A program made the position numbers and the translations under genes. A stretch of 64,000 bases of DNA from Burkholderia sp. BCC0322 (lineage in GTDB: Bacteria; Pseudomonadota; Gammaproteobacteria; Burkholderiales; Burkholderiaceae), in contig NZ_CADFDU010000001.1 in assembly GCF_902833045.1 (NCBI RefSeq), positions 947,927 through 1,011,926 on the forward strand, in the 5' to 3' direction. Of the stretch, positions 1 to 55,321 are shown one piece after another (positions within the stretch are counted from its first letter, which is position 1; each line of letters begins with the position of its first letter). The notes beneath the pieces are model-generated. The model was not told where the DNA came from, made no database searches, and was given only the letters and a program-made list of their open reading frames with translations.

Positions 1-3000
1 GGCGCGATCACGAATACGGGCGGTCAGATCAGCTCGACGCACGACTTGTCGGTCGCGGCTGCCACGCTGCAAGGCGGTGGCACATATAGCGCGACGCATG
101 ACGCCAACGTGAACCTGCAGGGCGACTACACGGCGGCGGCCGACACGCAGTTCAACGTCGGTCACGATCTTGCCTTCACGTTACCCGGCACCTTCACGAA
201 CAACGCGAACCTGCAGTCGGTCAACAACCTGAGCGTCAACGCGGGCAACATCGTCAACGTGGGCGCCCTGACTGCCGGCGGTCTGCTGCACACGCAGTCG
301 ACCAACCTGACCAATACCGGCGCGCTCGTGGGCGCGAGCGTGTCGCTTAACGCGACGAATACGATCTCGAACCTCGGCCCGACCGCGTTGATTGGCGGTT
401 CAGATAGCAACGGCACGCTCGAAATCCTCGCGCACGACATCGAAAACCGCGACGACACGACCGCGACCGATTCGATGGCGACGACAGCCATCTTCGGGAT
501 GGGCAAGGTCGTGCTGGCTGGCGGGAAGGACGCAAGCGGCAACTACACGAACGCGGCGCTCGTCAACAATGTGTCGGCCCTGATCCAGTCGAGCGGCGAC
601 ATGGAACTGCACGCGGACAAGGTGACGAGCACCCGCCGCGCGATGAAGACGTCCACCAGCCAGATCGATCCGGCATTGCTCGCGCAGTTCGGTATTCCGA
701 TCAGCGGTCGCACGGGCCAGATCGGCGTGAAGGATCCGGACAGCATCGGCGGCGTCTATACCGAGCCGCCTCATGGCGGTCAGTGGAACAGCACGTATCA
801 GTTCACGACCTACTACGCGGACAGCGCGACGGCGACGACCGTGACGGACATCAGCCCGGCCGCGCAGATCGTGTCGGGCGGCAAGATCGATGCGTCGTCG
901 GTCGGCACGCTGCAAAACTACTGGAGCAACCTCGCGGCGGTCGGCGATATCAAGATGCCGGCCTACTACGACGCCGACGGCTGGGCGGCGTCCGGCCAGA
1001 AGCTGCCGGGCGTGTCGGTTTCCTACTCGGGCCAATATCACTACAACAACTACGACAACACGGAACACGACTGGCAATTGCCGTTCGGCAACGCGCCGTT
1101 CGTGACCGGTCGCCCGGGCGGTTACACGCAGGCGGCACCGGCCTCGATCAAGGATTACAAACTACCGAAATACGACTCGACGTTGAGTTCGAACGGCACG
1201 ATTTCGGGCACGGGTGTCAGCGTCAACAACGCGGCGGGCAACGCCTCGATTCCGTCGCTCGGCTTGCTGCCGGGGCAGTCGGTGCCGGGTCTCACCCCCA
1301 CCAACCTGAGCGGTAACGCGAGCGGCGCGAAATCGGGTGCGTCGGCCGTGCACGGTGGCCCGTCGGCGCCGGTCGATCCGATCATCGCCAGTGCAACGGC
1401 ATTGATCGTGCTGAACAACCTCACCATTCCGCAAGGCGGCTTGTTCAAGCCGACGACTGCGCCGAATGCGGGCTACGTGATCGAAACGAATCCGGCGTTC
1501 ACGAACCAGAAGAATTTCATTTCGAGCGACTACTTCTTCAGTCAGCTTGGCGTCGACCTGACTCATATCCCGAAGCGGCTCGGCGACGGTTTTTACGAGC
1601 AACAGCTCGTGCGCAACGAGATCACATCGCTGACCGGCAAGGCAGTGCTGGGGCCGTACACGGACCTGCAGACGATGTACCAGTCGTTGATGGCGGCCGG
1701 CGCGGATCTGTCGAAGTCGCTCGATCTGCCGATCGGAGCCAGCCTGTCGGCCGATCAGGTGTCGAAGCTGACCAGCAACGTGATCATGATGGAAACGCGG
1801 GTGGTCGACGGCCAGTCGGTGCTGGTGCCGGTTGTGTATCTCGCGAAGGCCAGTCAGCAGAACATCGATGGGCCGTTGATCAGCGCGACGAACATCGACT
1901 TCCAGAACGCGCAGTCGTTCACGAACAGCGGCACGATCAAGGCGGACAACGCGCTGGCGATCCAGGGTAAGCAGATCGACAACGCGTTCGGCGCGCTGCA
2001 AAGCGGCGGACTGATGTCGTTGAAGACCGAGAACAACATCGACCTGACATCTGCGAATGTGAAGGCCGGCAGTCTGCAGCTCGATGCCGGGAAGGACCTG
2101 ATTCTCGATACGGCGACGAAGACGAATACCCGGGTGAGCCGCGACGGCGCGACGAGCGTGGTGACGACGCTCGGGCCGATGGCGAAACTCGACGTCGCAG
2201 GTGACGCGTCGATCACGACGGGTGGCAACTTCCAGCAGAACGCGGGCAATTTGTCGGTCGGTGGCAATCTCGGCATGAATGTCGGCGGTAACTGGGATCT
2301 CGGCGCGGTGCAGACGGGCGAGCACAAGATCGTGCAGCGCGCGAACGGCGTGTCCAACACCGACATCAACAAGGTTACCGGTAGCTCGGTGACAGTCGGT
2401 GGGCAATCTAATGTCGTCGTGGGTGGCGATCTGACGACGAAGGGCGCGCAGATCGACCTCGGGCAGGGTGGAACGATCGCGGCCAAAGGTAACGTCACGC
2501 TGGGCGCGGCGAGCGCGACGTCGACCGTAAACAGCAATAGCTCGGGTAGTGACAGTCACGGCAGCTATGCGGAAACGCTGCATACGTCGGACCAGGCGCT
2601 GACCGGGACGATGCTCAAGGGCGGCGATACGGTCAATATCGTCTCGGGCAAGGACATTACCGTCAGCGGCAGTGCGATCAGCCTCGACAAGGGCAACGCG
2701 AACTTGCTGGCGGCCGGCGATGTGAATGTCGGCACGGCAACCGAGACGCATGAGCTGAACTCACACGAGACGCATAGCCACAGCAATGTGGTGAGCGGGT
2801 CGAAGGTCGCAAGCGGAATCGACCAGACGGCGACCTATAGCCAGGGCAGTACGATTTCGGCGGATGGCGTGACGGTCACGAGCGGCCGGGACATCAACGT
2901 GACGGGCAGTAATATCGTCGGTACAAACGATGTGTCGCTGTCGGCTGCGCGGGACGTGAACATCAAGACCTCGCAGGACACGATTCAATCGTCTACCTAT

Positions 3001-6000
3001 TACGACAAAAAGGAAACCGGCCTGATGTCGAATGGGGGCCTCTCGGTGTCGGTCGGTTCTCGTTCGAACTCGGACAAGCAGCAGTCTTCATCGGTGACAA
3101 GCAACGGCAGTGCGATTGGAGCACTGAACGGCAACCTGACTGTGAGTGCGGGCAACGATTTGCACGCGACCGGCAGCATCCTGCATGCGGGCAACGACGT
3201 GAATCTTGCCGGCAAGACCGTGAAGATCGACGCCGCGACGGATACATCCAACTTCGCAGAGCAGCAGCAGTTTCGTCAGGCCGGCGTGACGGTGGGCGTG
3301 ACGAATCCGGTCGTGGCCGCGGTGCAGACTGGTCGGCAGATGACGAACGCTGCGCAAAGCGTGGGTGGCGATCCGCGCTTGATCGCACTGGCAGCCGCCA
3401 CGACGGGCCTTGCGGCGAAGAACACCTATGACTCGCTGAAGCAGATGGGCGGCGACCCGGTGAAAGCCGCGACAAGTGTCGGGATCAACGTGTCGGTCGG
3501 CGCGAGCAAGAGCGACAGCCAAATGCAGGCACAGTCGAACACTGCGGTGGGGAGTACCGTGTCGGCAGGCCGCAACGTGACGATCGCTGCCGCTGGCGCC
3601 GGCAAGGACAGCAATATCGACGTGATCGGCAGCACGATTTCTGCAGGCAACAATGCGAAGTTGGCCGCCGAAGGCAATGTGAACCTTCAGGCGGCAGAAA
3701 ATACCAGTAGCCAGCACAGTACGAACAGTGGGTCGAGTGCGTCGGTGGGCGTGTCGTTCACGGTCGGCGACAAGTCGGGGATAGCCTTCACGGCGGGCGT
3801 TGCAGGCAATCGAGGCAACGCGGATGGGGATTCGTCGACGTGGACGAATACGCACGTGGCTGCAGGCAACCAGCTTGCAATCCAGTCGGGCGGCGATACG
3901 AATCTGAAGGGCGCGGTCGTGTCAGGCAAACAGGTGGTTGCCGATGTCGGCGGTAACCTGAACATCGAGAGCCTGCAGGACAAGGATCACTATGATTCGA
4001 AGCAGCAGAGCGCCGGTATTTCGGCGAGCGTGTGTGCGCCGCCGCTTTGCGCCGGGAAGTCGAGCGTGGCGGGCAGTGTCGGCCAGACCAAGATGAACAG
4101 CGATTACGCAAGTGTGATCGAGCAATCGGGAATCAAGGCGGGTGATGGCGGTTTCCAGGTCGATGTGAAGGGCAATACCGATCTCAAAGGCAGTGTGATC
4201 GCGAGCAGCGACAAGGCAGTGCAGGACAACCTGAACAAACTGACGACCGGCACCCTCACCCATAGCGACATCGAGAACCACGCATCGTACGACGCATCGT
4301 CGGTCGGGCTCTCGGGCGGCTATGGCGGCACTATCGGCAAGGATCAGAAAGGCACGGCGGATAACGTGAATCCGGTGCCGGGAACCAGTGTGCCGAGCAA
4401 GGGCGGGGTGTCGGTTGCGCCGCCAGTGGTGATGGGCGCATCAGGTGACGCGAGCTCGACCACGAAGAGCGGTGTGAGCGGTGGTACGGTCACGATTACA
4501 GACGGCGCGAAGCAACAGCAACTGACGGGCGAGACCGCCGCCGAAGCGGTAGCGAACATCAATCGCGACACGTCGAACACGAGCAGTGCGCTCGCGCCGA
4601 TCTTCGACAAGGACAAGATTCAGGCCGGGTTCGACATCACGAGCCAGTTTATCAACCAGGTCGGGACCTTCGTCGACAATCGATTGAAGGAAGCGGACGC
4701 GGCACAGACTGCCGCCAAGAATCCGAATTTGACGCCCGAGCAACGATTGCAGGCGCAGCAGCAGGCCGACCAGTTGACGGCGGAATGGGGCCCAGGCGGT
4801 ACGTACCGGCAAGTGCTGTCCGCACTGACCGCAGCTGCGGGCGGCAACGTTACCGGCGGCGCCGGTCAGTTTGCGCAGGCCGGTGTGGTGAATTACCTGC
4901 AGCAGCAAGGTGCATCGTACATCGGCAAGCTGGTCGAAAACGGCACCGTGACGGAAGGTAGCCCGCTGCATGCAGCGCTGCACGCGATTGTGGGGTGCGC
5001 TGGTGCGGCGGCTAGTAGCCAGAGCTGCGGCGCTGGGGCGATGGGCGCGGCGGCATCCAGTCTGCTGACCAATCTGTTTGCACCGCCTACTCCCGACATG
5101 ACCGAGCAGGAGAAGGAAGCGAAACAGAATCTGATTTCGTCCATCGTGGCAGGTGTGGCGGCGGAATCGGGCGTGGGCGGTGCTTCGGGCGCGGCCACGG
5201 CAACGACCAGCGCGACAGCTGCCGCGCAGAACAATTGGCTCGCGACCGAACAGCGCGTTCAGATGCAAAAGGATCTGGTTGCCTGTAACGGCAACCTCGG
5301 ATGTCAGTTGCAGACCAACGCGAAGTGGTTCGCGGTCAGCGGGAAGCAGGATTTGCTTACGGCTGGGGGCGTGTGGAAGGGCTTGAACGAGGCTGCGGTC
5401 TTTGACGCCGCTGGGCTCGTGCGTTTTGCGGCCGATCCCGTCGCTGGACTGAAGGGGCTTCAGGCGCTGGTCGAAGATCCCCAGGTGCGCGCTGCGCTCG
5501 GCGATCAGATCGTCACCTCGTTGAAGACTCGGATCGCCAGCATGGACAATGCGCTGACGGTCGGCGGCGACGCGAATGCCGAGCAACTCGGGCGCGATTT
5601 AGGCAATCTTCTGTGGCAGGCTACGAGTGTCGTCACGGCGGCCAAAGGCGCGGTCGAAGCAAGTGCGACCCTCGGTCGAGTAGGGCTGGACGTGACGGCT
5701 GGTGCGCTCGAGACCCTCGCACGCCGGGCACCGCCACTTGTGACTGGCACGATGGCCGATATGGCGGGTAGCTATCGCTTCACGGCGGATCAGTTGCCGG
5801 CGTTGTCGACTATTTGGCGGAACGATGGGAAGCTCGGGGAACAGTTGTCATCTCAACTGATGAAGGAAGCGACTGGGCAGAATTTTGTGCCGATCCAGAA
5901 CGCATCCGGACATGGCATTGATTTGGTCTATATCGATCAGCAGACCAGGACGATTTATCATGTCGAGGTGAAAACCGTTACCGGTGATCGGATTCCCATC

Positions 6001-6234
6001 ACACCGGAGGATGATCTCACTGGTCGATTTGGAAATTGGATTGGACAGGCGTCTCAAGGTAAGCTCAGTGGGCAAGTATTGCCGCAAGATGCTGTTGACC
6101 TGGCGAACCGGATTGGTAAGGCGCAGGACGAAGGTTATACGGTTAGTCACAATGTCATGCAGGTCCAAATTCCTCGGCCGGGGAGCACTGGTTCGATTTC
6201 CGCGAACCTTTTGCCGTGGCCACCTGCAAAATGA
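1..6234 (+). CDS. bcpA: BcpA/CdiA contact-dependent inhibition exoprotein, 3' part
   Basis: This is the C-terminal 2077 residues of a two-partner-secretion exoprotein; the reading frame is open to the left edge, so the signal and TPS domain lie outside the window. Most of it is the filamentous haemagglutinin beta-helix, with repeated G-[ND]-[VL]-T-[IL]-x-A-G-like turns. Numbering from the first codon seen, a degenerate VENN-like boundary (AAAQNNW, QNN at about 1743-1745) precedes the variable toxin tip. The tip holds a PD-(D/E)XK-like nuclease core: GIDLVYID (D about 1974), then HVEVK (E about 1989, K about 1991). In this family the tip is delivered into neighbouring cells and the adjacent gene protects kin. 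The gene is followed by immunity, small membrane protein and transporter genes, the Burkholderia bcpAIOB order. That the toxin is a DNase or tRNase is inferred from the motif only. Confidence 0.93.
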   Translation, partial: GAITNTGGQISSTHDLSVAAATLQGGGTYSATHDANVNLQGDYTAAADTQFNVGHDLAFTLPGTFTNNANLQSVNNLSVNAGNIVNVGALTAGGLLHTQSTNLTNTGALVGASVSLNATNTISNLGPTALIGGSDSNGTLEILAHDIENRDDTTATDSMATTAIFGMGKVVLAGGKDASGNYTNAALVNNVSALIQSSGDMELHADKVTSTRRAMKTSTSQIDPALLAQFGIPISGRTGQIGVKDPDSIGGVYTEPPHGGQWNSTYQFTTYYADSATATTVTDISPAAQIVSGGKIDASSVGTLQNYWSNLAAVGDIKMPAYYDADGWAASGQKLPGVSVSYSGQYHYNNYDNTEHDWQLPFGNAPFVTGRPGGYTQAAPASIKDYKLPKYDSTLSSNGTISGTGVSVNNAAGNASIPSLGLLPGQSVPGLTPTNLSGNASGAKSGASAVHGGPSAPVDPIIASATALIVLNNLTIPQGGLFKPTTAPNAGYVIETNPAFTNQKNFISSDYFFSQLGVDLTHIPKRLGDGFYEQQLVRNEITSLTGKAVLGPYTDLQTMYQSLMAAGADLSKSLDLPIGASLSADQVSKLTSNVIMMETRVVDGQSVLVPVVYLAKASQQNIDGPLISATNIDFQNAQSFTNSGTIKADNALAIQGKQIDNAFGALQSGGLMSLKTENNIDLTSANVKAGSLQLDAGKDLILDTATKTNTRVSRDGATSVVTTLGPMAKLDVAGDASITTGGNFQQNAGNLSVGGNLGMNVGGNWDLGAVQTGEHKIVQRANGVSNTDINKVTGSSVTVGGQSNVVVGGDLTTKGAQIDLGQGGTIAAKGNVTLGAASATSTVNSNSSGSDSHGSYAETLHTSDQALTGTMLKGGDTVNIVSGKDITVSGSAISLDKGNANLLAAGDVNVGTATETHELNSHETHSHSNVVSGSKVASGIDQTATYSQGSTISADGVTVTSGRDINVTGSNIVGTNDVSLSAARDVNIKTSQDTIQSSTYYDKKETGLMSNGGLSVSVGSRSNSDKQQSSSVTSNGSAIGALNGNLTVSAGNDLHATGSILHAGNDVNLAGKTVKIDAATDTSNFAEQQQFRQAGVTVGVTNPVVAAVQTGRQMTNAAQSVGGDPRLIALAAATTGLAAKNTYDSLKQMGGDPVKAATSVGINVSVGASKSDSQMQAQSNTAVGSTVSAGRNVTIAAAGAGKDSNIDVIGSTISAGNNAKLAAEGNVNLQAAENTSSQHSTNSGSSASVGVSFTVGDKSGIAFTAGVAGNRGNADGDSSTWTNTHVAAGNQLAIQSGGDTNLKGAVVSGKQVVADVGGNLNIESLQDKDHYDSKQQSAGISASVCAPPLCAGKSSVAGSVGQTKMNSDYASVIEQSGIKAGDGGFQVDVKGNTDLKGSVIASSDKAVQDNLNKLTTGTLTHSDIENHASYDASSVGLSGGYGGTIGKDQKGTADNVNPVPGTSVPSKGGVSVAPPVVMGASGDASSTTKSGVSGGTVTITDGAKQQQLTGETAAEAVANINRDTSNTSSALAPIFDKDKIQAGFDITSQFINQVGTFVDNRLKEADAAQTAAKNPNLTPEQRLQAQQQADQLTAEWGPGGTYRQVLSALTAAAGGNVTGGAGQFAQAGVVNYLQQQGASYIGKLVENGTVTEGSPLHAALHAIVGCAGAAASSQSCGAGAMGAAASSLLTNLFAPPTPDMTEQEKEAKQNLISSIVAGVAAESGVGGASGAATATTSATAAAQNNWLATEQRVQMQKDLVACNGNLGCQLQTNAKWFAVSGKQDLLTAGGVWKGLNEAAVFDAAGLVRFAADPVAGLKGLQALVEDPQVRAALGDQIVTSLKTRIASMDNALTVGGDANAEQLGRDLGNLLWQATSVVTAAKGAVEASATLGRVGLDVTAGALETLARRAPPLVTGTMADMAGSYRFTADQLPALSTIWRNDGKLGEQLSSQLMKEATGQNFVPIQNASGHGIDLVYIDQQTRTIYHVEVKTVTGDRIPITPEDDLTGRFGNWIGQASQGKLSGQVLPQDAVDLANRIGKAQDEGYTVSHNVMQVQIPRPGSTGSISANLLPWPPAK

Positions 6235-13777: not shown

Positions 13778-16252
13778 TTACTTCTTGTTGCCGCCGCCCA
13801 GCAGACCGCCGAGGAGGTTCGTCACCGGCGAGAGCAGGTTGCCGGCGCCGCCCGCGGCACCGCCGTTCGAGCTACCGGTCAGGCCACCCACCACGGTGCC
13901 GCCGCCAGCCGGCGTCGTGACCGAGCCGGCCGCACCGCCGGGGCTGGCCGTGCCGGTGGCGCCCGCGGCGCCGGCCGGCGTCGTCAGCGCACCCGTCACC
14001 GTGCCGACCGGGCCGCTCGACAGCAGGCCGCCGAGCGTGCCCGTCACGTTGCCGCCGGGCGTCGTGACCGTGCCGGTGAGGCTGGCGCCAAGCGGTGTCA
14101 GCGCGTTGACGAGGTTGGTGACCGGCGCCAGCAGGCCGCCGATACCCGCGCCACCGGTGCCGCTGGTGCCGCCGGTGCCACTCGTTCCGCCGGTACCGCT
14201 CGTGCCGCTCGAACCGAGGCCGCCGAGCGCACCGGTCAGCGAGCCGAGCAGGCCCGTGACCGGTCCGAGCGGGCCGCCGCTGCTGGTGCCGCTGGTGCCG
14301 CTGGTTCCGCCCGAACCGCTCGAGCTGCCGCCGCCCAGGCCGCCCGTCAGCGAGCCGAGCAGGCCCGTGATCGGGGCGAGCGGGTTGCCGCCGCCCGTGC
14401 CGCTGCTGGAACTGCCCGCGTTGTTGTCGTGGACGAGACCGCCGGTGGACGTCACGGTGTTGCCGAGCTGCGCCACGACGCCGCCGAGACCGGCGCCGAC
14501 CGGGTTGTCGGTTGCGCCGCCGACCTTCGTGCCGGCGCTTGCGAGGCCGTTGCCGAGCGCGCTCAGCAGGCCGTTGAGCGGTGTGCCGAGCAGCGTCACG
14601 CCGCCGAGCGTCTGCGTGGCGCCCGGCGTCGAGACACCGCCGGTCAGCGTGTTCGTGATCGGGTTGATCACCTTGCCGACCTGCGTCTCGAGCTGCTGGA
14701 CCGGCGAGCTGTTCAGCGCCGTGTTGAGGCCCGACGCGGTCGAATTGACGGCGCCGCCGACGGTGTTCACGAGATCGCCGACGAGCGTCGTGACCGGCGA
14801 CAGCGGCGACAGCGGGCCGGAGCCGAGGCTCTTCACCGCGTTGCCGAGGTTGTTGACCGCGCCGCCGGCGCCGGTCAGCAGGCCGGTGGTCGACGTCAGC
14901 GTCGGTCCGAGCGGGTTGGCCGACACGCCGATCGAGCCGAGGCCGGCCGCGACGCCATTGCCGAGCGCCTGCACGCCGTTGCCGAGGCTGGTGACCGCGT
15001 TGCCGACGCTGGTGGCCGTCGTCGGGTTCGTGCCGGGGATCTGCACGCCGCCGATCTGGCCGCCGCCGTTCGCGACCGTCGTGCCGACTGCCGTCACGAG
15101 GTTGCCGGATTTCTGGAGGACATTGCCGAGGGGGGTGACGCCGGTGCCCGACGTACCGGAAGTGCCTGAAGTGCCCGAAGTGCCCGAAGTGCCCGAAGTG
15201 CCCGAAGTGCCCGAAGTGCCGGAGGTGCCCGACGTACCCGACGTACCGGAGGTGCCCGACGTACCCGACGTACCGGAAGTACCCGACGTACCGGAAGTAC
15301 CCGAGGTACCGGAAGTGCCCGAGGTACCGGAAGTGCCCGAGGTACCGGAAGTGCCCGACGTACCGGAAGTGCCCGAGGTACCGGAGGTGCCCGAGGTACC
15401 GGAGGTGCCCGAGGTACCGGAGGTGCCTGAGGTACCGGAAGTACCCGACGTACCGGAGGTGCCCGAGGTACCGGAAGTGCCCGAGGTACCGGAAGTGCCC
15501 GACGTACCGGAAGTGCCCGAGGTACCGGAGGTGCCCGAGGTACCGGAAGTGCCCGACGTACCGGAAGTGCCCGAGGTACCGGAGGTGCCCGACGTACCGG
15601 AAGTACCCGACGTACCGGAGGTGCCCGAGGTACCGGAAGTACCCGACGTACCGGAAGTACCCGACGTACCGGAAGTACCCGACGTACCGGAAGTACCCGA
15701 CGTACCGGAAGTGCCCGAGGTACCGGAAGTACCCGAGGTACCGGAAGTGCCCGAGGTACCGGAGGTGCCCGAGGTACCGGAAGTGCCCGAGGTACCGGAG
15801 GTGCCCGAGGTACCGGAAGTACCCGAGGTACCGGAAGTGCCCGAGGTACCGGAAGTGCCCGAGGTACCGGAAGTGCCCGAGGTACCGGAAGTGCCCGAGG
15901 TACCAGAAGTACCCGACGTACCGGAGGTGCCCGAGGTACCGGAAGTGCCCGAGGTACCGGAAGTGCCCGAGGTACCGGAAGTGCCCGAGGTACCGGAAGT
16001 GCCCGAGGTACCAGAAGTACCCGACGTACCAGAAGTAGTCCCCGACGTACCGGAAGATCCCGAGGTGCCCGAAGAACCGGATGTACCGGAAGAACCCGAC
16101 GTCCCCGAAGTCCCCGAGCTGCCGCCCGTCCCTGACGTGCTCGGCTTGATCGTCGGCGGCGTCGTCGGTCCATCGACCGAGCCGCAACCATAGAGTGCGA
16201 GCAGCGACGAGACGGCCATCGTTACCGTCGTCTTCTTGAAGAGTTTGTGCAT
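13778..16252 (-). CDS. Lipoprotein with about 100 Gly-Thr-Ser triplets (collagen-like repeat) and a Gly/Leu/Val-rich C-terminal domain
   Basis: An 824-residue predicted lipoprotein. The basic start MHKLFKKTT, a hydrophobic stretch and the lipobox LYGC (Cys23) suit lipid anchoring. After a short Pro/Thr segment comes an almost uninterrupted run of T-S-G (phase G-T-S) triplets from about residue 45 to 370, formally a Gly-X-Y pattern. Burkholderia is known to make collagen-like proteins with low-complexity, Thr/Ser/Ala-rich triplets. The C-terminal half is a second repeat type: LGN-x-[LV]-x-x-x-[GA]-type segments and PV-T-x-LLG-x-LTGGLGG units, with further short TSG runs, ending GGGNKK. No enzyme motif is present. 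A surface adhesin or extracellular spacer is the best guess. Start chosen at 16252 because the signal peptide begins there. Confidence 0.8.
15144..16118. repeat. Minisatellite of 9/18-bp units encoding Gly-Thr-Ser
   Basis: About 970 bases built from near-identical 18-bp units. Coding-strand unit: GGCACTTCCGGTACCTCG, i.e. two G-T-S triplets written with alternating codons. Units differ only at a few third positions (GGTACC versus GGTACG versus GGCACC). Every unit is a multiple of three, so slippage changes protein length but not frame, and all six frames stay open, which produces long false reading frames on both strands. Confidence 0.95.
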
Positions 16253-16608
16253 GTTGGCCTCGACATTGGAAGTGTGTCCAAGCCTCCTCTGCAAATTCCG
16301 CGCCACGACATCTTTCCCGAAACGGCGTCGCGCTTTATTGCAGAAATCGGGAATAACGGTGCGATTTAAACGGAGTTGCGGCAGTTTCGCGCGACGGGCA
16401 CGCAGGGTGCGCCGGTGCGGCGGTTGCGATGTTCCCGCAAGCCGCCGTAACGCGCGGCGCGATGTTACGTAGCGTTCGATATCGCGCGACGCGGCGGCCG
16501 CGAACTGAGGGCCGCATCTTTGACGAAACGCGCCGGCCCGATGAACATGACGCGACTCCCCGGCTGCCGACGCCGCCGCAGCCGCCACGACCCACAGAGG
16601 ACACGGAC
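16253..16608. other. Divergent intergenic region between the repeat lipoprotein and the CMD-family gene
   Basis: About 355 bases with no convincing gene. It must hold the lipoprotein promoter on the minus strand and the CMD promoter on the plus strand. An AT-richer stretch at 16330-16375 is the likeliest place for the minus-strand promoter. I see no clear operator or riboswitch. Confidence 0.5.
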
Positions 16609-17007
16609 ATGAGCGAACAGGACAGGGAATACGGCAAGGCGCGACGCATCGACGTGATGGGCGAGGCGTTCGTCGAGCGCGCGATGCGCGACCTCGACGG
16701 TTTTTCGCGCCCGCTGCAGGACTGGCTGAACGAGCACGCATGGGGCAGCACGTGGCAGCGGGGCGGGATCGACCTGAAGACGCGCAGCCTGTGCACGTGC
16801 GCGATGCTGGCGGCGCTTGGCCGCAGCACGGAACTGAAGGGTCACATTCGCGGCGCGCTCAACAACGGCGCGAGCCTCGTCGAAATCCGCGAGGTGTTGC
16901 TGCACAGCGCGCTGTACGCGGGCGCACCGGCTGCGGTCGAGGCGTTCCGCAGCGCACGGGAAGTGATATCGGATCTCGGGCTGCGGGTGCCCGACGACGA
17001 AGCCTGA
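16609..17007 (+). CDS. Carboxymuconolactone decarboxylase (CMD) family protein
   Basis: A 132-residue AhpD-fold protein resembling PcaC, gamma-carboxymuconolactone decarboxylase. Visible family features are the N-terminal helix region WLNEHAWGSTWQRGGIDLKTRSL, CTCAMLAALGRSTELKGHI (the helix with conserved ELK-H) and ALNNGASLVEIREVLLHSALYAGAPAAVEAFR. The Cys pair here is C-T-C rather than the CxxC of peroxidatic AhpD, so a decarboxylase or uncharacterised role is likelier than a redox role. AGAGGA precedes the ATG. It lies outside the protocatechuate operon, so the physiological substrate is uncertain. Confidence 0.85.
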   Translation: MSEQDREYGKARRIDVMGEAFVERAMRDLDGFSRPLQDWLNEHAWGSTWQRGGIDLKTRSLCTCAMLAALGRSTELKGHIRGALNNGASLVEIREVLLHSALYAGAPAAVEAFRSAREVISDLGLRVPDDEA

Positions 17008-49699: not shown

Positions 49700-49731
49700 A
49701 ACGGCGCGATGCCCGCAGGCATCGCGCCGTT
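49700..49731 (-). terminator. Strong terminator of the rtcB operon
   Basis: A perfect 14-bp stem (49700-49713 with 49718-49731) and a four-base loop begin seven bases after the nucleotidyltransferase stop. On the minus strand the stem ends in TTTTC. Confidence 0.85.
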
Positions 49732-49737
49732 CACTTG

Positions 49738-50553
49738 TCATCGATCGTCGACCACGTCGCGCAGGAACGCGTCGAGCATCGCCACGTCGCCCCACGGCCG
49801 CTTGTATTCGCGATCGTGTTCGGCATCGGCGAGCATCGTCTCGACGAGCGCGTGGATCGCCGGCCGGCGCGGCCCGTATTCGCTTTCGTTCGCGCTCATC
49901 TTCAGCGCGAGCAATGCGTCGAGTTCCGCGCGCACCGCCGGCGCGTGCACGGTGCCGTCGACGAGATCCGCGAAGCGCATCGGCGGCATCCCGAGCCCCA
50001 TGTCGATCCAGCGTACCGCGAGCAGCGGCCGCAGCACGTACAGGTACTTCTTGTAGCGCACCGTGTCGCCTTGCAGATAGCCGCGAAAGTTCTTCTTCGC
50101 CATCGCGAGGTAGTGGTGACGCCCGCGCACCGGCGAGAAGAACGCCGATGCCAGCGACCTGAGCCGCGGCGCCCAGCGTGCGTCTTCGCGATACACGACG
50201 GGCGAGTCGAGCCATTCGAGCAGCGTCGGGTTCGAGCGGCGCAGCAGTTGCAGCGCCTTGCGCAGTTCCCAGCCGCTGACGTCGAGCTCGTCGTCGAGCG
50301 GCCGCTCGATCACGTCGCGCTGCGGTTCGACGCTCAGGTACCAGTCGCGCCGGCGCGCATACACGAAGCGCACGTCGTAATCGCTGTCCGGCGATGCGAA
50401 CCCCCAGCCGCGGCTGCCCGATTCGCATGCGAACAGCACGCTCACGTCGTGGCGGCGCTCGACTTCCGCGAGCTCCGCCATCACGCGCGCCCGCACGGCC
50501 GGGTCGACCGGGTGCGCGCTGCGCACGGTCGTCATTGCCTTTTCCGTTTTCAT
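49738..50553 (-). CDS. RtcB-associated nucleotidyltransferase (PF10127, DNA polymerase beta superfamily)
   Basis: A 271-residue nucleotidyltransferase. The catalytic strand is ACESGSRGWGFASPDSDYDVRFVY: GSRGWG (the G-S motif) and D-Y-D, the metal-binding pair, followed by a helical region with KKNFRGYLQGDTVRYKKYLYVLRPLLA. PF10127 proteins are repeatedly linked to rtcB operons and are named as RNA-repair pathway members. It may add or restore 3' nucleotides before ligation. Last gene of the slipin-rtcB unit, 55 bases after rtcB. Confidence 0.88.
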   Translation of the reverse strand: MKTEKAMTTVRSAHPVDPAVRARVMAELAEVERRHDVSVLFACESGSRGWGFASPDSDYDVRFVYARRRDWYLSVEPQRDVIERPLDDELDVSGWELRKALQLLRRSNPTLLEWLDSPVVYREDARWAPRLRSLASAFFSPVRGRHHYLAMAKKNFRGYLQGDTVRYKKYLYVLRPLLAVRWIDMGLGMPPMRFADLVDGTVHAPAVRAELDALLALKMSANESEYGPRRPAIHALVETMLADAEHDREYKRPWGDVAMLDAFLRDVVDDR

Positions 50554-50608
50554 GGTTGTCGTTTCCCTTTCGTTGCGCGCGGCCGCCGGCCATCGGCCGC
50601 GCACCGCG

Positions 50609-51832
50609 CTATCCTTTCACGCACACCACCTGGCGCAGCGTATGCACCACTTCGACGAGGCTGCGCTGGGCCGCCATCACCGCGTCGATGTCCTTGTAGG
50701 CCATCGGGATTTCGTCGACGACGCCCGCGTCCTTCCGGCATTCGACGCCCTGGGTGGCCTTCACCTGGTCGTCGACCGTGAAGCGGCGTTTCGCTTCGGT
50801 GCGGCTCATCGTCCGGCCCGCGCCGTGGCTGCACGAGCAGAAGCTTTCCGGATTGCCGAGCCCGCGCACGATGAAGCTCTTCGCGCCCATCGAGCCCGGA
50901 ATGATCCCGAGCTGCCCCTTCTGCGCGGACACCGCACCCTTGCGCGTCACGAGCACGTCTTCGCCGAAGTGGCGTTCGCGCTGCACGTAGTTGTGGTGGC
51001 AGTTCACCGCGTGTTCGTCGACCGAGAATGGCTTCGCGATCACGCCGCGCGCCGCACCGATCACCGCGTCCATCATGGCCTGCCGGTTGCGGCGCGCGTA
51101 GTCCTGCGCCCAGCCCACCGCCTCGACGTAGTCGTCGAAGTGGCGGCTGCCCTCGGTGAAATACGCGAGGTTGCGATCCGGCAGGTTCGCGATGTGCTGC
51201 CGCATGTCGGCCTGCGCGAGCTCGATGAACAGGCTGCCGATCGCATTGCCGACGCCGCGCGAGCCGCTGTGCAGCATGAACCACACGTGGTCCGCTTCGT
51301 CGACGCACACTTCGATGAAGTGATTGCCGGTGCCGAGCGTGCCGAGATGCGCGTAGTGGTTCGTCTTTTCCAGCTTCGGGTACTTGTCGACGATCCGCTG
51401 GAAGCCCGGTTGCAGCGACTTCCACGATTCGGTCACGGTGGCCGGCGTGCGGTCGCCCCACGCGCCCGGATCGCGGCGGCCCGGCGCGCGGCCGTGCGGC
51501 ACCGCGCGTTCGATCGCGCCGCGCAGGCTCGCGAGTGAATCCGGCAGGTCGGACGCCGTCAGCGTCGTGCGCGCGGCCATCATCCCGCAGCCGATGTCGA
51601 CGCCGACCGCGGCCGGAATGATCGCGCCCTTCGTCGGGATCACGCTGCCGATCGTCGAGCCCTTGCCGAGGTGGACGTCCGGCATCACCGCGACGTGGCG
51701 GAAGATGAACGGCATCTGCGCTGTGTTGCGCAGTTGCGCGCGCGCTTCGTCCTCGACGGCGACGCCTTGCGTCCACATCTTCACCGGCTTGCCGTTGGCC
51801 AGTTCCATGACCTGATAATCCATGTTGCTCAT
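50609..51832 (-). CDS. rtcB: RNA-splicing ligase RtcB
   Basis: A 407-residue GTP- and Mn2+-dependent RNA ligase joining 2',3'-cyclic-phosphate (3'-phosphate) and 5'-OH ends. Visible: the GVDIGCGMMA metal motif with its Cys, the LGTLGTGNHFIE loop, HSGSRGVGNAIG, HNYVQRE, and the guanylylated His in CSCSHGAGRTMSR near residue 335. The length is that of E. coli RtcB (408). The start was chosen at MSNMDYQ because CAGGTGA lies five bases upstream; a start six residues earlier is possible. It follows the slipin gene, and no rtcA gene is present. Confidence 0.96.
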   Translation of the reverse strand: MSNMDYQVMELANGKPVKMWTQGVAVEDEARAQLRNTAQMPFIFRHVAVMPDVHLGKGSTIGSVIPTKGAIIPAAVGVDIGCGMMAARTTLTASDLPDSLASLRGAIERAVPHGRAPGRRDPGAWGDRTPATVTESWKSLQPGFQRIVDKYPKLEKTNHYAHLGTLGTGNHFIEVCVDEADHVWFMLHSGSRGVGNAIGSLFIELAQADMRQHIANLPDRNLAYFTEGSRHFDDYVEAVGWAQDYARRNRQAMMDAVIGAARGVIAKPFSVDEHAVNCHHNYVQRERHFGEDVLVTRKGAVSAQKGQLGIIPGSMGAKSFIVRGLGNPESFCSCSHGAGRTMSRTEAKRRFTVDDQVKATQGVECRKDAGVVDEIPMAYKDIDAVMAAQRSLVEVVHTLRQVVCVKG

Positions 51833-51898
51833 TTGCTTCACCTGATTCATTCATTCGTGCGGCGCGGTGCACATGCGCCGCGCCGCTTGTTTTGAGCC

Positions 51899-53038
51899 TT
51901 ATGCGCCCTTGATGCTGACGAGTCCGTTCAGCACCTGGTCGAGACCGCCGAACACCGAGATGCGGTCGATCCGTTCCGCGACGCGCTCGAGCGTTTCCAG
52001 CTCCTTGAGCCGCAGCGCGGTCGGGTTTTCTTCCATCACCTTCGCGGTGTTCAACAGCGAACGCGTGGCCGCCGTTTCCTCGCGGCGGCGAATCACGTTC
52101 GCCTGCGCGGACTTCTCCGCTTCGACCACCTGCGCGAGGATCGTCTTCATGTCGCCCGGCAGCACGATATCCTTCACGCCGACGCTGCGCACGTCCACGC
52201 CCGAATGGCCGAGGCGGGCACGCACCTGCGTGATCACGACGTCGTCGATCGACTGCTTGTCTTCCAGCAGTTCGTCGAGCGAGCGCGTGCCGACAGCCGA
52301 TCGCAGTGCGAACTGCAGCTCGCGATACAGGTGTTCGACCGGCTTCTGCAACTGGCCGAACGCGTGCAGCACGTCCGCATAGCACCACGTCGCCGACAGG
52401 TTGAGCCGCAGCGCGACCTTGTCGCGCGTGAGGATTTCCTGCCCGCCGACTTCGATTGCCTGCAAACGCAGGTCGACGAGTTCGACCGCGACGTCGCGGT
52501 TGAAGCGCCAGAACGCCGCGACACCCGCATCCAGCAGCCGCTCGATCTTGCCGTCGATCTTCAGCACGCCGACGTGGTACGCCGGCACCTGCGCCAGCAA
52601 CACGCCCGTCAGGCCCGCCACGCCGCGCGCACGCAGCGCCGGTTGCGCGATGCGCTTCACGAGGGCGGCCGGCAGCATGCTGTCCTGCGCGAGATCGACC
52701 CGTTCGAGACGGTGCGCGGTCAGGCCGCGCCAGTAAAGCCGGCGCGTGCCGGGCGCGAGGATCTCGACGAGCACGTCGTCTTCGTAGCGCAGGCCCGCTT
52801 CGTCGTCGGCGAGATCCATCGCGACGAAGTGCCGGGCGAGCACGTCCGGTGCGTCGTGACGCAGGTAGTCGGCCAGGGCCGCGTCGGCGAGCGGCGCGTC
52901 GAGACGCGCGGTCTGCACCGACAAACGCTTGAACGGATCGAAGGCCTTGAACACGCCCGGTTCGAGCACCTTCACGAAATCGCCCTCATTCATCAGCAGC
53001 GCGCGTTCGTTCTTTTTCACCACATGTCGCATCCACAT
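51899..53038 (-). CDS. Slipin/SPFH (band 7) protein of the RNA-repair operon
   Basis: A 379-residue SPFH-domain protein. It starts MWMRHVVKKNERALLMNEGDFVKVLEPG; the band-7 core VELVDLRLQAIEVGGQEILTRDKVALRLNLSATWCY (about 195-230) is clear. A charged helical tail VVEAEKSAQANVIRRREETAATRSLLNTAKVM (split: about 310-340) should form the coiled coil for oligomerisation. No strong transmembrane helix is evident. First protein gene after the tRNA-like RNAs; AAGGA precedes the ATG. Slipins recur in rtcB operons with unknown function, perhaps as a membrane or ring-shaped scaffold. Confidence 0.88.
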   Translation of the reverse strand: MWMRHVVKKNERALLMNEGDFVKVLEPGVFKAFDPFKRLSVQTARLDAPLADAALADYLRHDAPDVLARHFVAMDLADDEAGLRYEDDVLVEILAPGTRRLYWRGLTAHRLERVDLAQDSMLPAALVKRIAQPALRARGVAGLTGVLLAQVPAYHVGVLKIDGKIERLLDAGVAAFWRFNRDVAVELVDLRLQAIEVGGQEILTRDKVALRLNLSATWCYADVLHAFGQLQKPVEHLYRELQFALRSAVGTRSLDELLEDKQSIDDVVITQVRARLGHSGVDVRSVGVKDIVLPGDMKTILAQVVEAEKSAQANVIRRREETAATRSLLNTAKVMEENPTALRLKELETLERVAERIDRISVFGGLDQVLNGLVSIKGA

Positions 53039-53235
53039 ATTCTTGTCCTTTTCTTCAATGACCGCCGGATGACGCACATCGTGCGGATCGCGGGGCGACG
53101 CAACCGGGCGGGCGGCGCGCCGGCCCGGCGCCGAAGTGCACGGCGACGCATCCTGCATCGCGTCGTCGTGCGCCTTCGCGCGGGCCGTGCGGCCGTCCGG
53201 CCGATCGCGCGGAACCGCAACCGGTCCGACGCGCG

Positions 53236-53298
53236 GCGGGCCTCGCGGCCCGCACCGGCGGGTACTGCTGCTATCAAGAGACTGTCCTTGCGGACAGT
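53236..53298 (-). ncRNA. Two GNRA-capped hairpins between the tRNA-like RNA and the slipin gene
   Basis: On the minus strand, ACTGTCC-GCAA-GGACAGT (53281-53298, 7 bp) begins on the base after the tRNA-like acceptor stem. Further on, GCGGGCC-GCGA-GGCCCGC (53236-53253, 7 bp) follows. Both loops are GNRA tetraloops. They may protect or process the 3' end of the tRNA-like RNA, or form part of a larger structured RNA. Confidence 0.6.
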
Positions 53299-53369
53299 GT
53301 TCGAGCGGGATTCGAACCCGCTACACACCGGCTTGCGCCGGCTGCTCTACCCAAATGAGCTACCGAACG
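53299..53369 (-). ncRNA. tRNA-like RNA with tetraloop in place of the anticodon loop
   Basis: Minus-strand fold: acceptor GTTCGG (53363-53368) with TCGAAC (53299-53304), six pairs; TA spacer; D arm GCTC/GAGC with loop ATTTGGGTA containing the conserved GG; a 6-bp stem GCCGGC/GCCGGT closed by GCAA (53333-53336) where the anticodon arm should be; a five-base variable region; T arm GCGGG/CCCGC with the canonical TTCGAAT loop. D- and T-loop identities for the tRNA elbow are kept, but there is no seven-base anticodon loop and no CCA, so it cannot be a decoding tRNA. It lies between a sigma-54-type promoter and the slipin-rtcB genes. Confidence 0.75.
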
Positions 53370-53370
53370 G

Positions 53371-53416
53371 TGGGCGCCCCGGGATTCGAACCCGGGCGAA
53401 GTTCCAGTACGCGCCC
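53371..53416 (-). ncRNA. Acceptor/T-arm minihelix-like RNA element
   Basis: Just 5' of the tRNA-like RNA on the minus strand: GGGCGC (53411-53416) pairs with GCGCCC (53372-53377); a T arm CCGGG/CCCGG with loop TTCGAAT (53384-53390) follows; A and CC come after the acceptor strand. Only about 14 bases stand in place of the D and anticodon arms. A competing local pairing of GGGCG with CGCCC is possible. It resembles a tRNA top half. Confidence 0.6.
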
Positions 53417-53540
53417 GTTTGCCTTCGTCTGCCCATGGCGGCATACGCGACCGCGACGAACCAGGTTCGGCGGCGGCGCACCAGCAGGGCTTGTTGAACC
53501 CTGGCTCGCGGGCCAGCGGGACATCCGGCGCCTTCTATTT

Positions 53541-53557
53541 AGCGAGGAGCGTGCCAG
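53541..53557 (-). promoter_or_regulatory. Sigma-54-type promoter of the RNA-repair operon
   Basis: Minus-strand CTGGCACGCTCCTCGCT matches YTGGCACGRNNNTTGCW closely, with -24 GG and -12 GC exactly spaced. Transcription would start near 53530, before both tRNA-like elements. RtcR, a sigma-54 activator, is encoded divergently 150 bases away. Confidence 0.75.
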
Positions 53558-53704
53558 TAGGCGGCTTGATGTGCTCGATAAATCCCAAGCCGTTGAAATA
53601 AAAGGGGAATTATTTTGTGCGGCGGGTTGCGCAGGAAAATCAGGCCGTCGCTCGATTCTGAAAATTCGATACAATCAGATCGTCTATTATCTTGTGGGAT
53701 AAGC

Positions 53705-55321
53705 ATGCGCAAGACCGTCGCGATCGGTTTTCTCGGTACCGTGCTCGACCAGGGCGGCGGCTCGCAGCGCCGCTGGCGTAACTGGCGGCCGACGATTTCG
53801 TTGTGCGAACAGCGCGACACGCCGATCGACCGGCTCGAACTGCTGCATTCGCCGAACTACGCACGTCTCGCGAACCGCGTGAAACAGGATCTCGAGCGCG
53901 TGTCGCCGCACACCGACGTGCGGCTCGTCCCGATGGAGATTCGCGACCCGTGGGATTTCGAGGAGGTCTATGCGACGCTGCATGATTTCGCGCGCGCCTA
54001 CCCGTTCGATCTCGACCACGAGGATTACCTGATCCACATCACGACCGGCACGCACGTCGCGCAGATCTGCTGGTTCCTGCTGGCCGAAGCGCGCTACCTG
54101 CCGGCGCGTCTCGCGCAGACGGCGCCGCCGCAGAAGACCGACGAAGGATTGAGCGGGCCCGGCACGATGTCGGTGATCGATCTCGACCTGTCGCGCTACA
54201 ACCGCATCGCGCAGCGCTTCACCCGTGAGCGCGACGAAACCGTGTCGTTCCTGAAGGCCGGCATTGCGACGCGTAACGCGCGCTTCAACGCGCTGATCGA
54301 GCAACTGGAGCGCGTGGCCGTGCGTTCGCGTGCGCCGATGCTGCTGGTCGGGCCGACGGGCGCCGGCAAGTCGTTTCTCGCGAAGCGCGTGTACGAGTTG
54401 AAGCGCGGCCGCCATCGGCTCGCGGGGCCGTTCATCGAGATCAACTGCGCGACGCTGCGCGGCGACGCGGCGATGTCGACGCTGTTCGGTCACGTGAAGG
54501 GCGCGTTCACGGGCGCGCAGTCTGCGCGGGCCGGGCTGCTGCGCGCGGCCGACGGCGGCCTGCTGTTTCTCGACGAGATCGGCGAACTCGGGCTTGACGA
54601 ACAGGCGATGCTGCTGAAGGCGATCGAGGAGAAGCGTTTCCTGCCGGTCGGCGCGGACGTCGAGGCCACCAGCGATTTCGAGCTGATCGCGGGCACGCAT
54701 CGCGACCTGCGGCAGATGGTGGCGGCCGGCACGTTCCGCGAGGATCTCTATGCGCGGATCAACCTGTGGACGTACGAACTGCCGGGGCTGGCCGAGCGCC
54801 GCGAGGACATCGAGCCGAACCTCGAATTCGAACTCGACCGTTTCGGCCGCGAGCAGGGCGAGCAGGTGCGTTTCAACGTCGAGGCAAAGCGGCGCTATCT
54901 TGCGTTCGCCGCGTCGTCACGCGCGGCATGGGCCGGCAATTTCCGCGAGCTGTCCGCGTCGGTCACGCGGATGGCGACGCTGGCCGATGCCGGGCGGATC
55001 ACCGAAGCGCTCGTCGAACAGGAAGTCGAACGGCTGACGCGCACGTGGTCGCCGCCGGGCGGCGCGGGTGCGTCCGATGCGTGTGTCGACACGGTGTTCG
55101 GCGCGCGCGCGGCGGAACTCGACCTGTTCGACCGCGCGCAGCTCGAACGCGTGCTCGACGTGTGCCGCGTGTCGGCAAGCCTGTCGGAGGCGGGGCGCAC
55201 GCTGTTCGCGGTTTCGCGGCAGAACAAGAAGCAGCCGAACGATGCGGACCGGCTGCGCAAGTATCTCGCGCGATTCGGGCTGGATTGGGAGGGCGTGCGG
55301 CAGGCGCTCGACGGGGCATGA
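53705..55321 (+). CDS. rtcR: RtcR, CARF-domain sigma-54-dependent activator
   Basis: A 538-residue activator of RNA-repair genes. Residues 1 to about 180 form the CARF-type sensor (MRKTVAIGFLGTVLDQGGG; ITTGTHVAQICWFLL), which in RtcR senses RNA-cleavage products. The AAA+ domain follows: Walker A GPTGAGKS (about 216), the sigma-54-contact loop GAFTGA (about 268), Walker B LLFLDEIGE and FREDLYARIN. The C-terminal helix-turn-helix is near SLSEAGRTLFAVSRQNKK. It is divergent from the tRNA-like/slipin/rtcB unit. ATG 53705 is chosen as the family start. A TACAAT at 53670-53675 may be its own -10 box. Confidence 0.95.
   Translation: MRKTVAIGFLGTVLDQGGGSQRRWRNWRPTISLCEQRDTPIDRLELLHSPNYARLANRVKQDLERVSPHTDVRLVPMEIRDPWDFEEVYATLHDFARAYPFDLDHEDYLIHITTGTHVAQICWFLLAEARYLPARLAQTAPPQKTDEGLSGPGTMSVIDLDLSRYNRIAQRFTRERDETVSFLKAGIATRNARFNALIEQLERVAVRSRAPMLLVGPTGAGKSFLAKRVYELKRGRHRLAGPFIEINCATLRGDAAMSTLFGHVKGAFTGAQSARAGLLRAADGGLLFLDEIGELGLDEQAMLLKAIEEKRFLPVGADVEATSDFELIAGTHRDLRQMVAAGTFREDLYARINLWTYELPGLAERREDIEPNLEFELDRFGREQGEQVRFNVEAKRRYLAFAASSRAAWAGNFRELSASVTRMATLADAGRITEALVEQEVERLTRTWSPPGGAGASDACVDTVFGARAAELDLFDRAQLERVLDVCRVSASLSEAGRTLFAVSRQNKKQPNDADRLRKYLARFGLDWEGVRQALDGA

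Follow-up and report, generated by a model that had tools for sequence, protein, structure and literature searches.

SPFH/Band-7 modules, together with a "novel tRNA-like molecule", were reportedly identified in 2016 by Burroughs and Aravind as cofactors of RtcB systems. In the rsr-yrlBA-rtcBA operon of Salmonella, the activator RtcR, whose PF06956-type domain is of the CARF type, binds 5′ tRNA halves that end in a cyclic phosphate, RtcA is needed for operon expression, and the operon RNA YrlA, which has a tRNA-like domain, is not cut (PMC7790460). Pseudomonas aeruginosa is described as having an rtcB-rtcA operon with PA4582 and PA4584 (PMC8619066), and no effect of deleting its SPFH gene paFlo8 could be detected by the assays in the part of the source drawn on here (PMC13086221). 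In Anabaena, a repressor, TrcR, is described as controlling rtcB as well as a slipin-containing operon (PMC10272220). Here we describe an RNA-repair locus of Burkholderia sp. BCC0322 that lies within a 64,000-nt stretch (the window) of contig NZ_CADFDU010000001.1 and whose operon, read on the minus strand, opens with a large structured RNA, the existence of which we consider very likely. That this RNA acts in trans, as the scaffold of a repair particle of RtcB and the SPFH protein (slipin), is marginally probable in our judgement.

The locus has in common with the Salmonella operon the control by RtcR and sigma-54, the RtcB ligase, an operon RNA with a tRNA-like domain and a (here putative) RNA-binding partner (PMC7790460). 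It differs in having no TROVE/Rsr protein among the operon proteins scanned (Band_7, RtcB and RlaP only), no RtcA, a far larger RNA, and two tRNA-like units instead of one domain. RtcA was found neither among the operon genes scanned nor, as PF01137, in any of 25 genomes of the same genus, in agreement with the initial annotation of the window, which was made from the sequence alone. Because RtcA is required in Salmonella and absent from these 25 genomes, the RNA-repair signal in the window's genus must arise in another way.

The structured RNA between promoter and slipin

Conserved structure extends over nearly the entire 5′ untranslated region (UTR), ~53062-53530 on the minus strand, and makes it a single RNA of ~470 nt, in which a three-way-junction leader is followed by tRNA-like elements A and B, a short hairpin and a long 3′ domain that leaves ~20 nt to the start codon of slipin and stops just short of the ribosome-binding site (Table 1). 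The transcript is predicted to start near 53530, a position that we take from the usual spacing of sigma-54 promoters. The initial annotation had put two tRNA-like elements at the 5′ end of the transcript; both exist, but they start ~114 nt past the predicted start, in the middle of the RNA, and they are a minor share of a larger molecule that had been missed.

A scan for slipin yielded 71 homologous loci (L-numbers below), 72 with the window. In 53 of the 72, a sigma-54 site is followed 103-125 nt later by a GYAUGCCG-type motif, and in 53 loci the distance from promoter end to slipin start has a median of ~498 nt. The core leader motif is found in five more loci (L041, L051, L054, L055, L058); the remaining 14 comprise two loci with short upstream sequence (L029, L040) and 12 that are cyanobacterial (L059-L065) or alphaproteobacterial (L067-L071). 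When 35 of the 53 were aligned over the full length of the RNA (leaving out near-identical rows as well as L049, L050 and L066, which are divergent), the consensus contained 115 pairs, with 89.7% paired cells as opposed to 78.0% after shuffling and 37-47% with slid partners, and with double changes in 75 pairs as opposed to at most 57 in 100 shuffles. Shuffles ignore relatedness and therefore overstate the signal, while slid controls keep relatedness but are biased towards a structure that was itself obtained from these sequences; a comparison of own with swapped flanks is less prone to both weaknesses.

Covariation is strong in the leader, in element B and in the 3′ domain. Alignment A1 (40 of the 58 leader-bearing loci, near-identical ones omitted) resolves the region from the promoter to element A into two neighbouring hairpins, P1 and P2, and a highly conserved core (53437-53516 in the window, GGUGCG...GYAUGCCGCC); 94.8% of its cells are paired (80.1% shuffled, 35-53% with slid partners) and 17 of its 23 pairs have changes on both sides. 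The flanks of the leader form a closing helix, P0, which begins at the predicted start site and stops just ahead of element A. In 28 of the A1 rows (L027 included, 12 Burkholderia/Paraburkholderia rows omitted), flanks paired with their own partners at -22.9 kcal/mol and with swapped partners at -14.7 kcal/mol, and none of 5000 permutations was as low as the observed mean; the own partner ranked first in 10 of the 28 and among the top three in 18, and twelfth in L051. The ~250 nt between element B and slipin contain 48 pairs, the hairpin after B included, in 23 sequences (Burkholderia, Paraburkholderia, L049, L050, L055 and L066 omitted), with 91.3% paired cells against 77.9% shuffled and 29-48% slid, and double changes in 37 pairs, a number that never exceeded 30 in 200 shuffles. 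A stem at the place of the post-B hairpin is paired in 17-18 of these 23 non-Burkholderia sequences. G-U cells outnumber A-C cells by 148 to 15 in the leader and by 90 to 46 in the 3′ domain, indicating that the transcribed strand is the one that folds; the leader shows this plainly, the 3′ domain with less contrast.

The folding energy of 53290-53530 as a single sequence is not below that of shuffles (z -0.47), so the evidence for structure is comparative. Rfam 15 gave no match at E≤1 in the leader and, in the 3′ domain, only a sub-threshold YrlA match that reaches 40 nt into it (53223-53262). In 17 of the 72 loci it gave tRNA alone at gathering scores, and within the window's RNA it recognises only element B.

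A covariance model of the leader (R1), searched at E≤0.01 against a phylum sample of 398 genomes and an overlapping order sample of 399, matched seven and 19 genomes, respectively. Slipin adjoins all 18 strong matches of the two samples (E≤4.4e-5) and none of the five weaker ones (E 7e-4 to 0.0099), and RtcR is present in 11 of the 18 short loci with strong matches. In a genus sample, the 40 of 65 Burkholderia genomes with a leader match (E≤1e-4) are exactly those with a slipin match (E≤1e-60), and a comparison of coordinates by eye places the two side by side in all 40.

A position directly upstream of slipin in every strong match, ending so close to the start codon, is what a cis-acting leader would have: a regulatory 5′ UTR in which the tRNA-like modules sense the state of tRNA or of a tRNA-binding enzyme and control the translation or stability of slipin-rtcB. 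This is the main rival of a scaffold in trans. However, the consensus structure of the full-length alignment keeps the ribosome-binding site unpaired, no conserved terminator-like T-run was seen by eye in the aligned 3′ region, the size and modularity of the RNA are unusual for a switch, and RtcR and sigma-54 already control transcription. Control in cis is an unlikely explanation, albeit one to be taken seriously.

Elements A and B

Tandem T-arms are found upstream of slipin in 63 of the 72 loci by a rule of our own, mostly 68-78 nt apart (the first is doubtful in L041); the rule excludes L060, L070 and L071, of which L060 and L070 have two T-arms at other spacings. Six cyanobacterial loci (L059 and L061-L065; five Chamaesiphon and one uncultured) have two tRNA-like elements and a third T-arm upstream of slipin, and a search with the window proteins identified no RtcR or RtcB in them. 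Element A of the window is a 45-nt unit of acceptor stem and T-arm, the anticodon arm being missing in Burkholderia. ARAGORN calls element A a full cloverleaf in L030, L032 and L045 (Pseudomonas), in L042, L044 and L048, and in at least five Chamaesiphon-type loci; the calls include some betaproteobacterial and cyanobacterial loci. The Rfam family mascRNA-menRNA (RF01684) matches the window's A at 22.4 bits, below the cut-off of 42.5.

Element B was detected by ARAGORN and by the Rfam tRNA model (40.4 bits) at 53297-53369 on the minus strand. The initial annotation expected its tRNA-like fold to covary in homologous loci, and this it does: in alignment A3, double changes were found in 12 of 18 pairs across 43 B elements. 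A3 omits 16 near-identical Burkholderia loci, the near duplicates L009, L012, L057, L064 and L065, the loci L060, L070 and L071, and three in which B is shifted, enlarged or without a D-arm (L027, L037, L058); L029 and L040 have no B. The sub-threshold YrlA matches (RF02553) score 25.4 bits (E 0.003, model 1-114 of 114, 53223-53341 on the minus strand) and 22.8 bits, the cut-off being 69; the former, spanning the whole model, runs from the T-arm of B into the first part of the 3′ domain.

Element B of the window lacks the marks of a functional tRNA gene: it has an acceptor stem of 6 bp instead of 7, no CCA and no 7-nt anticodon loop. In its anticodon arm stands a GCAA tetraloop (within CGCAAG), and GNRA tetraloops are found in the window and in eight of the 11 Burkholderia/Paraburkholderia rows of A3. 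The anticodon loop has 7 nt in 22 of the 43 elements, all from non-Burkholderia loci and with several different anticodons, and 4, 5, 6 or 8 nt in the other 21, among them several tetraloops of the GNRA and UUCG types. U36 is present in 20 of the 22 loops of 7 nt and A37 in 18, which is the pattern of tRNAs that decode ANN codons. An NCCA sequence stands in exact register in only two of 63 B elements and 11 of 63 A elements (in a few more A elements CCA is displaced by one); in the window CCA is absent from both. Because element A is also called a full cloverleaf in other loci, A and B look like derivatives of full tRNA-like units in which an anticodon loop and a CCA end are not required.

The absence of a normal anticodon loop from 21 of 43 B elements and of CCA from nearly all might suggest decayed tRNA genes or the scar of a mobile element, without function. 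We give this almost no credence, since it is contradicted by covariation and by a position kept from Burkholderia to Methylococcaceae; tandem T-arms occur also in the cyanobacterial and alphaproteobacterial loci.

Another possibility is that A and B are cut sites for RNase P and RNase Z, so that the leader and the 3′ part would each be released as a small RNA of its own. The two elements stand in tandem straight after P0, and A resembles (below threshold) mascRNA, which is produced by processing of the RNase P/RNase Z type. The rarity of NCCA in register and the short acceptor stem of B argue against such a device, and we think it improbable.

The initial annotation offered the tRNA-like RNAs as decoys for tRNA-cleaving toxins or as reporters of damage: anticodon-cleaving toxins would cut B, thereby sparing the real tRNAs or yielding a ligand of RtcR. 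The ANN-decoding pattern of the 7-nt loops would suit this role, and Hughes et al. propose YrlA as a possible competitive inhibitor (PMC7790460), in the report that also describes YrlA as uncut in Salmonella. However, a 7-nt loop is missing from nearly half of the homologues, among them the window, and the substitution of a GNRA tetraloop for the anticodon loop in most Burkholderia rows argues against a decoy for anticodon nucleases; induction after damage would also come late for a decoy. This role is thus disfavoured in the present lineage, and very improbable overall.

The operon, its promoter and its neighbours

Table 1. Features of the RNA-repair locus, in window coordinates, from the activator gene to the end of the operon.
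Feature	Position	Strand	Basis or remark
RtcR (CARF-type domain and sigma-54 AAA+ activator)	53705..55321	+	Divergent; ATG start read from sequence; PF06956, NF038308
Sigma-54-type promoter, TGGCACG-N4-TCGCT, TGGCACGCTCCTCGCT	53541..53556	-	Sequence match
Three-way-junction leader (closing helix P0, P1, P2)	53421..53529	-	A1 covariation; P0 flank test
tRNA-like element A: acceptor stem, ~14-nt insert, T-arm	53372..53416	-	Two T-arms in 63/72 loci; sub-threshold mascRNA match
tRNA-like element B: cloverleaf, 6-bp acceptor stem, GCAA tetraloop for anticodon loop	53299..53368	-	Rfam; covariation
Short hairpin after B, CTGTCC/GGACAG	53281..53298	-	Conserved position
3′ domain: closing helix GCCGGY/RCCGGC, side hairpin, very long helix	53062..53262	-	Covariation
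Slipin, SPFH/Band-7 protein	51899..53038	-	PF01145
RtcB RNA ligase	50609..51850	-	PF01139, 437 bits
RlaP, RNA-repair pathway nucleotidyltransferase	49738..50553	-	PF10127, 320 bits
14-bp inverted repeat, possible terminator	49700..49731	-	3′ of RlaP; T-run only four long

The initial annotation had named an RtcR activator, a slipin, RtcB and a PF10127 nucleotidyltransferase, and each of the four is borne out by family matches above cut-off: RtcR by PF06956 (E 1.2e-82) and NF038308 (848 bits, cut-off 650) in a profile scan, slipin by Band_7 PF01145 (92.9 bits, cut-off 23.6), and RtcB and RlaP likewise by matches that exceed the Pfam cut-offs. The divergent sigma-54-type promoter also stands. 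Its site is the sole match in the window, where 0.08 would be expected by chance, to a pattern ending in TYGCW, widened in order to admit TCGC, and the TCGC variant is kept in relatives. The terminator assigned to the end of the operon fared less well: the inverted repeat is present, but its T-run is short and a terminator scan did not list it. Of the parts of an RtcR-controlled RNA-repair operon, RtcR, the sigma-54 promoter (by sequence match and conservation) and RtcB are present, and RtcA, which would make it an operon of the rtcBA type, is not. The locus is well described as a single coherent unit under RtcR that carries tRNA-like RNAs of its own.

Among the 71 other loci, several of them cut by contig ends, a tblastn search with the window proteins detected RtcR in 50, RtcB in 52 and RlaP in 21. 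Four loci of betaproteobacterial metagenome-assembled genomes (L046, L047, L051, L053) have a different RtcB (29-32% identity) 3′ of the same slipin and RNA. RtcB of L010 lies ~1.2 kb past the end of slipin, as opposed to ~70 nt in its neighbours, which suggests an insertion.

In the predicted structure of the slipin, SPFH1-like modules follow one another and a long helix makes up the C-terminal part. The model (pLDDT, a per-residue model confidence score, 84) was matched by Foldseek to stomatin and to the major vault protein (MVP), to stomatin better, and hydropathy revealed no evident membrane helix. The protein looks soluble, and the architecture of the model recalls that of the vault protein. 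In L025, L057 and genomes G771, G774 and G801, the N-terminal module region is partly doubled (matches 1-202 and 54-380 in tandem), so the number of beta modules varies.

Elsewhere in the window, an open reading frame with haemagglutinin repeats (PF13332) at 46-6234 on the plus strand, ~43 kb from the RNA-repair locus, fits the remark of the initial annotation that a contact-dependent growth inhibition (CDI) locus is present; a link between this locus and RNA repair, which was suggested at the same time, has no support. A bacterial collagen-like protein (PF15984 and PF01391) is encoded at 13778-16741 on the minus strand.

A candidate repair particle and known systems

If, as we assume from Salmonella, RtcR senses broken tRNA ends and turns on the sigma-54 promoter, the resulting transcript would open with the multi-domain non-coding RNA and continue through the genes for slipin, RtcB and, in part of the loci, RlaP. 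The RNA may then act in trans as the scaffold of an SPFH-protein particle, as Y RNA does with Ro60/Rsr in related operons. Its tRNA-like modules might dock tRNA-handling factors or stand in for a tRNA substrate, with RtcB mending damaged tRNA at that spot, and tRNA-type processing around A and B might release the RNA from the mRNA. A more specific form of the scaffold, which we hold to be tentative and rather doubtful, is a vault-like ribonucleoprotein in bacteria, in which SPFH protein would form a soluble cage around the ~470-nt RNA with its two tRNA mimics. Broken tRNA would induce the particle, and in it tRNA would be mended by RtcB, together with RlaP in the loci that have it.

To our knowledge, bacteria have only a small number of large structured RNAs, and for the majority no partner is known. 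In the present case the protein neighbour is constant and both the inducing pathway and the enzymes are known, which opens the function of the RNA to direct testing. A scaffold role would go some way towards explaining substrate finding by RtcB in lineages without RtcA. The systems of Burroughs and Aravind reportedly have an SPFH protein, a tRNA-like RNA, RtcB and a new nucleotidyltransferase together, as well as the idea of a scaffold, and the association is thus reportedly published already; in the present locus the tRNA-like part is a pair of elements inside an RNA of ~470 nt with a three-way-junction leader and a long 3′ domain. No description of the large RNA was found in the literature, which, for a search of open-licence papers, is weak evidence of novelty.

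The rtc locus of P. aeruginosa likewise has an SPFH gene (that of PaFlo8) within an rtcR-rtcB locus (PMC13086221), and the locus of strain PA7 (L028) carries the leader and tRNA-like element B; RtcA is present there and absent here. A word search of the PaFlo8 paper (PMC13086221) found no mention of tRNA or ncRNA (non-coding RNA). A scaffold RNA would give the SPFH protein of rtc loci, the deletion of which is without detectable effect in that source (PMC13086221), a concrete role.

Element A shares with the mascRNA of MALAT1 a short tRNA-like form with a small hairpin and a T-arm, but its score is sub-threshold and in the window it has no CCA. With the eukaryotic vault (MVP and vault RNA), the locus shares an apparently soluble SPFH protein, in the model with repeated N-terminal beta modules and a long C-terminal helix, and a link to a non-coding RNA. 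In contrast to MVP, the slipin has three modules instead of a long series and matches stomatin better, and a slipin cage is conjecture. If the vault-like reading were true, the locus would encode another RNA-repair particle, independent of Ro60, and one that corresponds in function to the eukaryotic vault.

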